From Polaribacter irgensii 23-P (GTDB lineage: Bacteria; Bacteroidota; Bacteroidia; Flavobacteriales; Flavobacteriaceae), in contig NZ_CH724148.1 in assembly GCF_000153225.1 (NCBI RefSeq), forward strand, positions 314,640 to 378,639: a DNA stretch of 64,000 nt. The letters run 5' to 3'. Of the stretch, positions 45,077 through 49,077 are shown piece by piece; position 1 is the stretch's first letter; the number at the start of each line of letters is the position of its first letter. The notes under the pieces are model-generated. The model worked only from the letters and a program-made list of their open reading frames with translations. It ran no database searches and was not told the origin of the DNA. The translations under genes were made by a program, and so were the position numbers.

Positions 45077-45574
45077 ATGAAAAAAATATTATTAATATCC
45101 GATACTCATAGTTTTATCGATGACCAAATTTTAAAATTTGTAAGGCAAGCAGATGAAGTTTGGCACGCAGGAGATATTGGCAATTTACAAGTTACAGACA
45201 CAATCAAAAGCCTAAAGCCTTTAAGAGCTGTATTTGGAAATATAGATGACCACGATGCGCGCGCTGAATTCCCTTTAGATCAAAAATTCGAAGTTGAAGA
45301 TGTAACCATATGGATTACGCATATTGGGGGCTACCCCAATAGATATGACCAAAGAGTGCGAGAAGAATTAAAAATAAATACGCCCACCATTTTTATCTCT
45401 GGACATTCCCATATTTTAAAAGTACAATATGACAAAAAGCTAAAGTTGTTGCACCTAAATCCTGGAGCTGCAGGCAATCATGGTTTCCATAAAGTAAGAA
45501 CAATGCTCCGATTTGAACTTGCTGCAGGGGCCATAAAAAATTTAGAAATTATAGAGTTGGCCCAGCGGGGGTAA
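45077..45574 (+). CDS. YfcE/MJ0936-family metallophosphoesterase
   Basis: A 165-residue calcineurin-like phosphodiesterase. The two-metal site is seen as SDTHS (D, H), HAGDIG, VFGNIDDHD, ITHIGG and SGHSH. Proteins of this family hydrolyse phosphodiesters or phosphoproteins; the natural substrate is unknown. It is usually next to truA and an ABC transporter in flavobacteria, as here. Its last 26 bp overlap the 3' end of the histidine kinase gene on the opposite strand. Confidence 0.92.
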   Translation: MKKILLISDTHSFIDDQILKFVRQADEVWHAGDIGNLQVTDTIKSLKPLRAVFGNIDDHDARAEFPLDQKFEVEDVTIWITHIGGYPNRYDQRVREELKINTPTIFISGHSHILKVQYDKKLKLLHLNPGAAGNHGFHKVRTMLRFELAAGAIKNLEIIELAQRG

Positions 45575-47387
45575 TCGCATTTTTTTCCATTATAGGCAAC
45601 TCTGCAAATACGGTAGTCCCTTCATTAAGCACAGAATCTATTAAAAATTTCCCTTGCATCATTTGTATTCTTGCATGAATTTGGTTAATACCTATGCCAT
45701 CCTTAGTAGACGTAAGTGTCTTATCAAAACCCTCACCGTCATCTTCGATTTGAATAAGTAATCTTCCATTTTTCTCTTCTAATTTTACAAGTGCTTTTGA
45801 TGCTTTACTGTGCTTTAAAATATTATTGACAAATTCCTGAATGATGTTATTTGCTTTAATTTCAAAATTTTGGTGATACCTCCTCAAATTTTTGATATCT
45901 GTATTTATTTGAAGTTGCGAGTTGGAATATTTTTCTGACATTTCCTTAATCGCATATTTCAATCCAAACTTTAGCAATACCGAAGACACTAAACTATGTG
46001 ATAAGTCTCGAATCGTTTGTGAAGCTTCTGTAATAATTTGCTGCGTCTTATCAATCTCTGTTGGAAAAACTCCATTAAACTGCATTTTAGTAGCTTGCAA
46101 ATGTAAATTAGCCGACGATAATAAAGAGCTTACACTGTCGTGTAATGTTTCCGCAATTTGCTTACGCTCTGTCTCTTTACCATCTAATGTTGCGTTTAAA
46201 ATACGCACCTGCGCTTCTGATTTTAATTTCTCTAATTTATTCTTTTGAGCCAATCTTGTTTGCGCCAGCTTTAATTTTAAGTTTTTCTGACGTAATTTAT
46301 AATTGAATACGATCACTCCAGAACTAACCGTTAATAGAAGAATTAAAAGAATAAAAAAAATGATCGTTCTTTTCTCTTCTAGCTCTTTTAACTTAAGATC
46401 TGATGCTGCCGTATTCGCTTGTTTCTTTGCGATATCCAATTGATATTTTTCGTATACCTGTCTTACAATATGGTCAAATTCTACACTTTGTAAGCTGTCT
46501 TTAATAAGAAAAGATTTTTCTTGATAATCATATGCTTCAAAATCTTTTAAATTATATAACGCCCAAGCCAAGTTAAAGTATAAATCTTCTTTATATCGGA
46601 TCGCTTCGCTACTATTATCCTGTTCTATAAGGTCCAAAGCACTGGTGTATATCTCTTTGGCTTTCTTAAAATTATCCTCTAGCATATAAATACTTGCGAG
46701 ATTTGTTAATGCAGAGGCTTCGTTTAATTTATTTTTATGCAGCTTTCTAATTTCAAGAGCTTGGAGAGAATATTTTTTAGCCACACCATAAGATCCTATT
46801 TTTATGAATGTAGCAGATAAATTGTTATAAGCACCCGCTTTTATAGAAGACAAATCCTCATCTATAAAGTTCATTTGAATAATTTTATTATAATAGCTTA
46901 TAGCGCTATCTTTCTTTTCTAATAATGAATATTCAACTCCAATCTTTAACAGATTGTCTGCTAATAAATAACTGTTAACTGGAACTTCTGTAAAAGTATT
47001 TAATCTTGGGTGGTCTAGAAGCACCTCTTTCTTTAGCAAAAACAAAGATTTTTTTAAATATAAGATTGCTTTATCATGATCCTTAATTTTAGAAAAATTT
47101 TCACCTAATAGGAAAGCTGTCAAGTAGCGTAAGACAGTATTGTTTGATTTTTCAAGTTCAGTGAATAGTGCAAGTCCAAACTCTAATGACTTAGAATACT
47201 CTTCATTCTCATAATACTGTCGAATCTCTTGGTACCGTATAACCTGAAGAGAGTCTTTTTTTTGAGGAAATGGCAAAGGAGAAACTTGAACTGATCTAGC
47301 TTCCCCTTTATTATTTGCTATTATTATATGGTTACCAATGCGAATCGTTGCCAATACAAGCAACACACATCTTAAATATCTGTTCAT
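45549..47387 (-). CDS. Sensor histidine kinase with TPR repeats (NarL-type, HisKA_3)
   Basis: A 612-residue sensor. ATG 47387 (MNRYLRCVLLVL) begins a signal/anchor; the frame upstream overlaps the lipoprotein gene without family similarity. An extracytoplasmic region of about 300 residues carries TPR repeats (AYNNLSATFIKIGSYGVAKKY, LTNLASIYMLEDNFKKAKEIY). One transmembrane segment (about 340-362) follows, then a coiled coil and the HisKA_3 motif with His416 in AETLHDSVSS, and a C-terminal HATPase (N-box NNILKHSKASK, G1 DDGEGFD, G2 GIGINQI). It should phosphorylate the LuxR-type regulator encoded upstream at 48184-48849. The stimulus is unknown. Confidence 0.93.
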   Translation of the reverse strand: MNRYLRCVLLVLATIRIGNHIIIANNKGEARSVQVSPLPFPQKKDSLQVIRYQEIRQYYENEEYSKSLEFGLALFTELEKSNNTVLRYLTAFLLGENFSKIKDHDKAILYLKKSLFLLKKEVLLDHPRLNTFTEVPVNSYLLADNLLKIGVEYSLLEKKDSAISYYNKIIQMNFIDEDLSSIKAGAYNNLSATFIKIGSYGVAKKYSLQALEIRKLHKNKLNEASALTNLASIYMLEDNFKKAKEIYTSALDLIEQDNSSEAIRYKEDLYFNLAWALYNLKDFEAYDYQEKSFLIKDSLQSVEFDHIVRQVYEKYQLDIAKKQANTAASDLKLKELEEKRTIIFFILLILLLTVSSGVIVFNYKLRQKNLKLKLAQTRLAQKNKLEKLKSEAQVRILNATLDGKETERKQIAETLHDSVSSLLSSANLHLQATKMQFNGVFPTEIDKTQQIITEASQTIRDLSHSLVSSVLLKFGLKYAIKEMSEKYSNSQLQINTDIKNLRRYHQNFEIKANNIIQEFVNNILKHSKASKALVKLEEKNGRLLIQIEDDGEGFDKTLTSTKDGIGINQIHARIQMMQGKFLIDSVLNEGTTVFAELPIMEKNAITPAGPTL

Positions 47388-47415
47388 GCCTTTAAAAATA
47401 CAACAATTATTTCCA

Positions 47416-48090
47416 TCAATAGCTAAAGGAAGTATCGTAAACAACTCTCGGCTTTCTTTCCTTTCTTGCAGCAACTCCCTTTCCAAATAACGCGTGGTTT
47501 ACAAAATCGATCTTTAAAATTTTGGTAATTGGAATATCAACGGTCAACGAAAATACTTTCTGCGTACTTGGTCCATTCCTTAAATGCACTTCATAAATTC
47601 CCAATAATTTATTGTATAAAAATGTGGCTACAACATTGTCCTCTACTTCAAAATCTAACTGAAGTGTACCATCCTCATTAGTTGTCAACCCGTACGTCTT
47701 TAAAAATTTTGTTTCGCCTCCTTTTGCAAAATTAATGTTCTCATCTTCGATCGTAAATTTAGCCCTTTCCCCAACCGTATCGTCAAACAGCCCAACACTT
47801 AATCTATTGTCGCTCAGCGCTAAACTTTGTGAATATTGATTTTTTGTATCAAATACCACTTTAGACAAATGAAACTCCTTCGTGTTTGAAGTTACGTCAT
47901 CATGTGTAACAGAAAGCGTGTTATTTAAAACCTGATAAGCGATGGAGTACACACCGTTCGCATCTCTCTTTAGTTCTATTTGTTTTAGCAGGGCTTCTGG
48001 AGTTTCATCTATATCGAGTTCGTTGTTAGAACAAGAGGTGAAACCTAATGCTGCGAAACAAAACAAAAAAGTAAAGGCTATTTTTCTCAT
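47416..48090 (-). CDS. Lipoprotein of unknown function between regulator and kinase
   Basis: A 224-residue protein with a clear lipoprotein signal (MRKIAFTFLFCFAALGFTSC). The rest is predicted beta-rich, with many alternating hydrophobic strands (GVYSIAYQVLNNTLSV, LQLDFEVEDNVVATFLYN, YEVHLRNGPS), and ends in a basic region (AARKERKPRVV). I recognise no family. It lies 93 bp after the response regulator and 28 bp before the kinase, on the same strand, so it may be an accessory sensor or a target of the system. The C-terminal sequence is compositionally unlike the rest. Confidence 0.75.
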   Translation of the reverse strand: MRKIAFTFLFCFAALGFTSCSNNELDIDETPEALLKQIELKRDANGVYSIAYQVLNNTLSVTHDDVTSNTKEFHLSKVVFDTKNQYSQSLALSDNRLSVGLFDDTVGERAKFTIEDENINFAKGGETKFLKTYGLTTNEDGTLQLDFEVEDNVVATFLYNKLLGIYEVHLRNGPSTQKVFSLTVDIPITKILKIDFVNHALFGKGVAARKERKPRVVYDTSFSY

Positions 48091-48183: not shown

Positions 48184-48849
48184 TCAGACAAGGTTATACT
48201 TTACAGCATATATTGCCAAGCCAACCGAATTTTTTACGTTTAACTTTCTTAATAGTTTTTTTCTGTATGACTCTACAGTATGATGGCTAATGTTCATCTT
48301 TTCTGCAATCTCACTTGTGCTTAGTTCTTTAGAGACAAGCCTTAAAACATTTTTTTCTCTTTCTGTTAAAGAATCAAAAAGAAGATCTTGTGGCATGTCT
48401 CCTGTCCTTGCTTTTTGACCAGATATTGATTTTAACAACTCTTTCTGAATGTCGCTGCTAAAATATTGCTCTCCATTCGCGACTGCTTTTATTGCATGGA
48501 CAATATGTGCTCCTGCATTGTTCTTAGAAATATAACCACTTGCTCCTAAACTTAATACTTCTTGCACAATGCGAACATCATCGTAACTTGACAAAACAAT
48601 TACTTTTTGCGCTATTCCTTTTTCCTGAAAATATCTTAAAACTTCAAAACCATCCAGAATCGGCATGGTGATGTCCAAGATGAGAACGTCTGCTCGGTTT
48701 TCCTTCTCGTTAAACCACTCTATTACAGCTTGGCCAGTTAAAGAAAAGTCTATTATTTCAATATTTTCGTCAGTCTTTATTACCGCTATAATTCCTTCGA
48801 TTAAAATCTTATGATCATCAGCTACGTGAACAAATATCTTTTTCTTCAT
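48184..48849 (-). CDS. LuxR/NarL family response regulator
   Basis: A 221-residue response regulator. The receiver domain has acidic DD at 11-12, the phospho-acceptor Asp59 in LILDITMP, and the switch region VIVLSSYDD with a later GYISKNN carrying the Lys. The C-terminal LuxR helix-turn-helix is clear: LTEREKNVLRLVSKELSTSEIAEKMNISHHTVESYRKKL. It is the first gene of a regulator-lipoprotein-kinase unit. Its promoter region carries a TAAATTTG element and phased CCCTGAA sites, so it probably regulates itself. Confidence 0.95.
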   Translation of the reverse strand: MKKKIFVHVADDHKILIEGIIAVIKTDENIEIIDFSLTGQAVIEWFNEKENRADVLILDITMPILDGFEVLRYFQEKGIAQKVIVLSSYDDVRIVQEVLSLGASGYISKNNAGAHIVHAIKAVANGEQYFSSDIQKELLKSISGQKARTGDMPQDLLFDSLTEREKNVLRLVSKELSTSEIAEKMNISHHTVESYRKKLLRKLNVKNSVGLAIYAVKYNLV

Positions 48850-48858
48850 TATGATTTA

Positions 48859-48866
48859 CAAATTTA
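48859..48866 (-). promoter_or_regulatory. -7 promoter element for the response regulator operon
   Basis: The minus strand reads TAAATTTG (TAnnTTTG). The transcript should begin near 48854, only about 5 bases before the ATG at 48849. Confidence 0.55.
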
Positions 48867-48890
48867 AGTTAGTAATTTAGATTCTACAAT

Positions 48891-48951
48891 CCCTGAAAAC
48901 AGTATATTTTTTATACCCCTGAATTCAGGGTACAAGACCCTGAATTCAGGG
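48891..48951. promoter_or_regulatory. Candidate operator: two CCCTGAATTCAGGG palindromes plus a half-site
   Basis: Perfect 14-bp palindromes at 48917-48930 and 48938-48951 start 21 bp apart (two helical turns). A half-site CCCTGAA at 48891-48897 lies about 40 bp upstream of the predicted transcript start. The outer flanks (48904-48915 and 48952-48963) are also inverted repeats of ATATTTTTTATA, so the whole block is nearly symmetrical. Location before the response regulator suggests binding by that LuxR-type protein. Confidence 0.6.
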
Positions 48952-49077
48952 ATATAAAAAATATCAAATAATTGAAATACAGTCTTTTAAATAATATTAA
49001 AATTACACCTTATAAGCTCAATAACAGAAAAAATAATAAATATTAATTTCTGAATAATCAATTTACATACACTCCAT

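Follow-up and report, generated by a model that had tools for sequence, protein, structure and literature searches.

Palindromes ahead of a LuxR/NarL-type response regulator gene in Polaribacter irgensii: a probable autoregulatory operator respelled across species together with the recognition helix

The question raised by this locus is which protein reads a cluster of palindromes standing just ahead of a minus-strand response regulator gene in Polaribacter irgensii 23-P, and what its binding would do to that gene. A sequence-only reading of the DNA analysed (64,000 nucleotides, here called the window) had assigned the palindromes to the adjacent LuxR-type regulator itself. The features concerned are, in window coordinates:

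48938..48951, no strand: distal operator palindrome CCCTGAATTCAGGG, with a layout that is retained in close orthologues
48917..48930, no strand: middle operator palindrome CCCTGAATTCAGGG, its start 21 bp from that of the distal copy
48891..48904, no strand: proximal degenerate palindrome CCCTGAAAACAGTA, containing the CCCTGAA "half-site" and adjoining the -33 element
48904..48915, no strand: AT-rich arm ATATTTTTTATA, between the half-site and the middle palindrome, forming an inverted repeat with 48953-48964
48953..48964, no strand: AT-rich arm TATAAAAAATAT, reverse complement of the arm at 48904-48915; the two arms flank the palindrome pair
48887..48890, minus strand: presumed -33 element ATTG
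48859..48866, minus strand: presumed -7 element TAAATTTG, 20 bp from TTG
48184..48849, minus strand: response regulator of 221 aa, receiver plus GerE/LuxR helix-turn-helix, with His190 and probably Glu193 as specificity residues
47416..48090, minus strand: protein of 224 aa encoded between regulator and kinase, its N-terminus lipoprotein-like
45549..47486, minus strand: TPR - HisKA_3 - HATPase sensor kinase, presumed partner of the regulator

The two perfect copies of CCCTGAATTCAGGG are present as described, with starts 21 bp apart, and CCCTGAA begins, also as described, a further 26 bp toward the gene. The latter motif had been called a half-site near -40. Its position (about -43) is right, but it reads CCCTGAAAACAG(TA), its gene-side edge adjoins ATTG, and it is in fact a third, degenerate palindrome. 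The matching flanks exist as well, ATATTTTTTATA and its reverse complement enclosing the palindrome pair, but the first arm sits between the half-site and the middle palindrome. The promoter is of the form ATTG-N20-TAAATTTG (N20 counted from TTG) and precedes the gene of the 221-aa regulator, TAAATTTG being read at 48866-48859 of the minus strand. If transcription starts a few bases downstream of TAAATTTG, the three sites are centred at about -43, -69 and -90, in agreement with the -70 and -91 claimed for the two perfect palindromes.

The regulator is of the NarL/LuxR type, with Pfam matches over the cut-offs to Response_reg (72.4 bits; positions 1-111 of 111) and GerE (66.1 bits). The residues of its phosphorylation pocket (D11, D12, D59 and K109) are invariant in 11 aligned orthologues. 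To the GacA/UvrY subfamily it does not belong by score (NCBIfam 127.1 bits versus a cut-off of 280). The kinase encoded after it, which would presumably phosphorylate it, has HisKA_3 and HATPase_c matches over the cut-offs, as expected for a two-component system. Its open reading frame as listed (45549-47486) starts at TTG and overlaps the lipoprotein-like gene (47416-48090); the true start probably lies inside the listed frame. Among 80 loci, some of them cut by contig ends, the kinase is found near the regulator in 68, a relative of the 224-aa protein (without Pfam or NCBIfam match) in 46, Rho in 73 and DUF4293 in 76.

Are the palindromes more than chance? In the 2.76-Mb genome the pattern CCCTGNNNNCAGGG occurs four times, every time spelled CCCTGAATTCAGGG, and the reversed pattern does not occur, which rules out a random repeat. 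From the base composition of the window only about 0.003 copies of the exact 14-mer would be expected in the genome. Each of the four copies precedes promoter-like sequence, and the genome-wide count that the sequence-only reading had called for argues against random scatter. With up to three mismatches allowed, the count within the window is 3 and thus unremarkable (1.35 on average after shuffling, with 16 of 100 shuffles giving at least 3); it is therefore the exact copies, with their spacing and promoters, that carry the significance. A restriction site as the explanation was rejected because other operator classes, which are described below, lack GAATTC.

Searching the genome for a palindrome arm plus spacer plus CAGGGATTG with up to three mismatches yields 16 promoters (control 0), with ATTG at the -33 position in 14 and GTTG in two. 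These promoters are that of the regulator, those of eight repeat units, that of one predicted small RNA (1359916, minus strand) and six others; one promoter architecture would thus head a regulon of 16 promoters that includes the predicted small RNA and predicted secreted or lipoproteins. The repeat units are:

contig C1 of the same genome, at 1741384, 1741794, 2320702, 2321098, 2328817, 2340764, 2375876 and 2379726: eight units of about 180 bp that precede unrelated genes; the region at 2.32-2.38 Mb holds six

Each unit consists of operator, promoter and a conserved tail of about 110 nt, which ends in a T-run and has a weak predicted fold; the unit may serve as a long leader or give rise to a separate short RNA. 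The two remaining exact copies of CCCTGAATTCAGGG head members of this repeat, with the same layout. The first open reading frames of at least 50 aa downstream of the promoter matches lie at a distance of 72 to 864 bases, measured from the start of the match, and encode, judged by eye, lipoprotein-like and small secreted-looking proteins, besides proteins with RES, patatin and Pfam beta-lactamase-family domains. A separate species (G050) likewise has a promoter unit of its own in several copies, ahead of lipoprotein-like genes (L126-L130), and the protein at L126 resembles by eye the protein after the site at 2374187 of the P. irgensii genome.

In all of the 16 promoter matches the proximal site adjoins the -33 element. 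It is therefore conceivable that the regulator, when bound to these sites, acts as a repressor of its own promoter, with RNA polymerase being blocked at -33 by the proximal site. We consider this unlikely, because the sites, wherever promoters were read, form a stack on the upstream side of -33 and do not cover -7 or the start. Upstream of -33 is the usual place of an activator. Activation of its own gene thus remains the preferred reading: regulator dimers would bind to the two distal palindromes and to the proximal site beside the -33 element, and the bound regulator would most likely activate transcription. Both self-activation and the cooperativity of binding are suggested by position and spacing.

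If the palindromes are the operator of the regulator, they should be found also before its orthologues. Relatives of the regulator, paralogues included, are present in 91 of 97 genomes. The loci, obtained by a scan of genome contigs, are mostly from Polaribacter and also from Tenacibaculum, Lutibacter, Aureivirga, Flavobacterium and others. By one fixed rule, a pair of palindromes spaced by 20-24 bp stands where expected relative to the -33 element in 27 of the 30 closest orthologue promoters, and 5 of the next, more distant 20 show this strict layout. Inverted repeats are thus conserved in the promoter of the regulator across orthologues, with a spelling that depends on the class of the regulator as defined by residue 190 of its recognition helix. 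The half-sites read ATCCCTGAA; CTCACTGAA or CTCACGGAA; CTCCCCATA; CTACGTATA; and CTMAGGGTT, and the distal copies inside one promoter change in concert. Promoters of the Lys class often have a single site or a different spacing. Conservation of the motif in its literal spelling must be rejected, since it is missing in 47 of 57 genomes. The sequence-only reading had made the presence of the motif before orthologues a test of the operator idea; in other helix classes the motif itself is absent, but a different palindrome is similarly placed, and its literal absence there therefore counts for the operator idea rather than against it.

For the comparison of regulator and site, 130 regulators were collected, of which 111 (distinct, at least 200 aa) were kept. 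Forty-two of these had no usable site (24 without a promoter match, 18 without a palindrome of at least 6/7 pairs), leaving 69 to be counted. Among the 42 dropped are all ten Lutibacter rows and the window's own copy, which scores 5/7 in the automatic test. Where two sites stand in tandem, the dyad midway between them is a product of the tandem itself and was left out by rule.

The operator class follows residue 190. With Asn, Tyr or Lys at this position, base 4 of the half-site is A in 34 of 35 cases (one ambiguous), and so it is with the single Ala190 regulator; with His, Ser, Arg or Thr it is C in 33 of 33. Lys and Arg regulators have G at base 5 in 14/14 cases. Among 71 sites, a set for which a slightly laxer promoter rule was used than for the 69, the pair of residue 190 and base 4 has the highest shuffle z-score and accounts for 92% of the base entropy, and the pair of residue 193 and base 7 has the second-highest, accounting for 49%. 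Outside the DNA-binding domain the strongest pair among the 22 listed explains 57%; the signal in such columns comes via shared ancestry. Asp193 goes with A at base 7 in 17/17 regulators and Glu193 with G in 44/53. This second correlation is partly confounded with the first, 14 of the 17 Asp193 regulators being of the Ser class and residue 190 accounting for 63% of the base-7 entropy. Within the Asn190 regulators the split is clean (Asp193, A in 2/2; Glu193, G in 21/21), within the Ser190 regulators it is not (Glu193: A three times, G once, one ambiguous).

How often residue 190 has changed can be estimated from trees. On the receiver tree there are 17 changes for all 111 rows and 12 for the 69 rows with sites; on a tree of a neighbouring gene (80 rows, quick method) there are likewise 12. 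When the DNA-binding domain is left out of the tree building, the independent pairs are concordant for base 4, yet only 2 to 3 of them lie on well-supported branches, and with so few pairs none of the independent-pair tests is significant for base 4. For residue 193 and base 7, a few pairings on these trees were reversed or without difference.

What makes residue 190 a plausible determinant is its position. With a C-terminal offset of 10 to the RcsB profile, residue 190 aligns with K180 and residue 194 with S184 of RcsB, which have been named as the two residues of this protein that make sequence-specific base contacts (PMC5829831). Residue 190 also aligns with K194 of DegU, which contacts bases in a published model (PMC9263151). 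In ungapped alignments of the DNA-binding domain to VraR, EsrB and the response regulator chains of the 4wt0 group, these proteins have Lys at the residue-190 position. The 4wt0-group response regulator we take to be LiaR.

The correlation can be looked at also from the side of the genomes. Five class-specific patterns were searched for in 57 genomes, 49 of known regulator class (9 His, 13 Asn, 13 Ser, 1 Thr, 2 Arg, 11 Lys) and 8 unknown. The His pattern was found in 9/9 His genomes and 1/40 others, the Asn pattern in 6/13 and 0/36, the Arg pattern in 2/2 and 0/47, the Ser pattern in 6/13 and 0/36, and the Lys pattern in 8/11 and 0/38, plus G012, an incomplete genome that is one of the eight of unknown class. 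The misses in Asn, Ser and Lys genomes are probably due to the narrowness of the patterns. Reversed controls gave 0, except for three occurrences of the reversed His pattern in G026, where the forward pattern occurs ten times. The sole His-type site in a genome of other known class, the Ser-class genome G025 (L077/L134), may be a chance occurrence inside a gene. In G023 (L135) and G019 (L136) the regulator matches only in the receiver part, ending within or just past it, and these two genomes therefore stay unclassed.

These data bear on whether a different DNA-binding protein reads the palindromes, the regulator gene being merely one of its targets. Such a protein might be suspected because the proximal site does not follow the class: it has GGG beside ATTG in 19/28 Asn-class promoters, and a second factor may therefore act there. 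The proximal site may also be an older site or a weakly bound one. For the palindromes as a whole, however, another protein is quite improbable, since the operator spelling tracks a base-contact residue of this very regulator and the class patterns are almost restricted to matching genomes. That the palindromes represent hairpins in RNA, the remnant of a terminator or a mobile repeat is hardly credible in spite of their strong dyads and of the two exact copies inside the repeated unit of about 180 bp, because the sites vary together with a protein residue and stand upstream of the promoter, at similar spacing to it, ahead of unrelated genes.

The best reading is therefore an operator of the adjacent regulator, as the palindrome covaries with a base-contacting position and the motif is nearly confined to genomes with the matching helix; the assignment made from the window alone is in this respect borne out by strong, if indirect, evidence that the regulator reads the palindromes. 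Taken as a whole, we hold it to be very likely that the LuxR/NarL-type regulator encoded just downstream has in this cluster its autoregulatory operator, most likely an activating one, that the same architecture heads a regulon, and that it has been respelled across species together with residue 190 and probably residue 193. The layout would largely be kept while bases 4 and 5 follow residue 190 and base 7 probably follows residue 193. With somewhat less assurance we favor the view that one orthologous regulator has changed its specificity time and again within a group of related marine bacteria (residue 190 requires at least 12 changes on the neighbour-gene tree), its regulon, made up of its own promoter, predicted small-RNA genes in single or several tandem copies and secreted proteins, being respelled alongside by a simple code in which residue 190 specifies bases 4-5 and, less certainly, residue 193 base 7.

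Sites away from the regulator often head a unit of about 100-120 nt with a strong terminator hairpin, which would be transcribed as a small RNA. In P. irgensii and in G053 this predicted RNA has a GH31 gene on one side and a release-factor gene (PCRF and RF-1 domains) on the other, as identified by Pfam; promoter-like sequence, an intrinsic terminator and conserved synteny, the marks of a small-RNA gene, are all present. The promoter in P. irgensii has a weaker CCCCATATTCAGGG. An RNA model matches in 24 of the 57 genomes (E <=0.01), of which at least four matches are doubtful: those in G003, G011, G015 and G019 look like other terminators. At the match in G036 (L152) no operator was seen. When one genome for each of the 120 genera of the family, that of P. 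irgensii included, was searched with strict filters, the model matched the P. irgensii genome and, in part, G187. A run of C with at least three unpaired bases is found in the 5' half of 23/24 predicted copies and in the terminator loop of 16/24. Rfam at the gathering score gave no match in four loci of the predicted RNA, nor in L005 and L006. In four species (L116, L117, L120 and L121) the predicted RNA is present in tandem copies.

Do the promoters of the predicted RNA follow the class of the regulator? Twenty-five of 30 loci were examined; L153, L156, L159 and L160 looked unrelated and L166 is cut by a contig end. A palindrome (at least 5/7) was found in 22 of the 25, two of them, L140 (out of register) and L157 (weak), being read by eye; 21 of the 22 are in genomes of known class, and 21/21 agree with the class of the regulator. 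It should be noted, however, that the copies from which the RNA model derives had been located by way of His- and Asn-type palindromes, so that the agreement in genomes of these types is partly built in. The nine promoters, from eight genomes, that were neither found via the palindrome nor used for the model (L140, L141, L144, L148, L149, L150, L154, L157 and L165) agree in class in 9/9 cases, and in those genomes two separate promoters thus share the spelling. The proximal site reads CCCCATAAATGGGTATTG, which is Ser-class-like, in small-RNA promoters of Asn-class genomes, e.g., L137 and L144.

Other predicted targets come from His and Asn genomes, where sites are found ahead of lipoprotein-like genes, subtilase genes (L113, L122), the gene of a T9SS-sorted GEVED protein (L103; similar starts in L124 and L131) and that of an HTH_3 regulator (L100; L123 looks alike). 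In five of the nine His genomes a site precedes the gene of an ABC-F-like ATPase, identified by Pfam for L109 and by similar sequences for L103, L111, L114 and L124. Downstream of operators in two species (L249, L108), small secreted-looking proteins containing Cys appear similar by eye.

Among known systems, the MerR, Rex and NrtR families are examples of factor-site coevolution in which the correlation between positions of protein and DNA has its centre in the recognition helix (PMC5045206, in whose main text LuxR does not occur). The present case is alike in this correlation but differs in that the change takes place within one orthologous group, with a promoter layout that is largely unchanged. 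In Flavobacterium psychrophilum the small RNAs Rfp1-89 have been described, of which Rfp18 affects proteases (PMC9723704; in its main text neither "palindrom" nor "LuxR" occurs). They share with the RNA predicted here that they are flavobacterial small RNAs. A description of the motif or of the regulon was not found in the literature searched, which covered few subscription journals.

A further known system is that of GacA/UvrY, a LuxR-type regulator with palindromic sites, sometimes in several copies, upstream of small-RNA genes. The system proposed here has in common with it the type of regulator and the palindromic sites before small-RNA genes, which in our case are predicted. However, the RNAs controlled by GacA/UvrY have GGA loops, whereas the RNA predicted here has unpaired runs of C and, in the four loci searched, is without an Rfam match; and here the regulator gene itself and genes of secreted proteins also carry the site. 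Few links between a regulator and a small RNA are, to our knowledge, known in Bacteroidota. The results thus point to a predicted small-RNA regulon in this phylum that we did not find described. They go beyond the operator idea from which the analysis started in this regulon, in the recoding between species and in the code of residue 190, to which residue 193 is likely to add a second position.

The NarL/LuxR type is one of the most common among response regulators, and predicting its sites is difficult. RcsB, DegU, VraR, LiaR and EsrB share with the regulator from P. irgensii the combination of receiver and GerE domain. They all have Lys at the position of residue 190, whereas here the residue varies with the species within one orthologue, being mostly His, Asn, Ser, Arg or Lys, and each of these goes with an operator of its own. 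Since one or two residues vary jointly with the operator on a promoter geometry that stays largely constant, both the specificity code and a route of regulon rewiring become directly testable, and, if the interpretation is correct, these orthologues are a natural series from which the recognition code of the very large NarL/LuxR family can be read.
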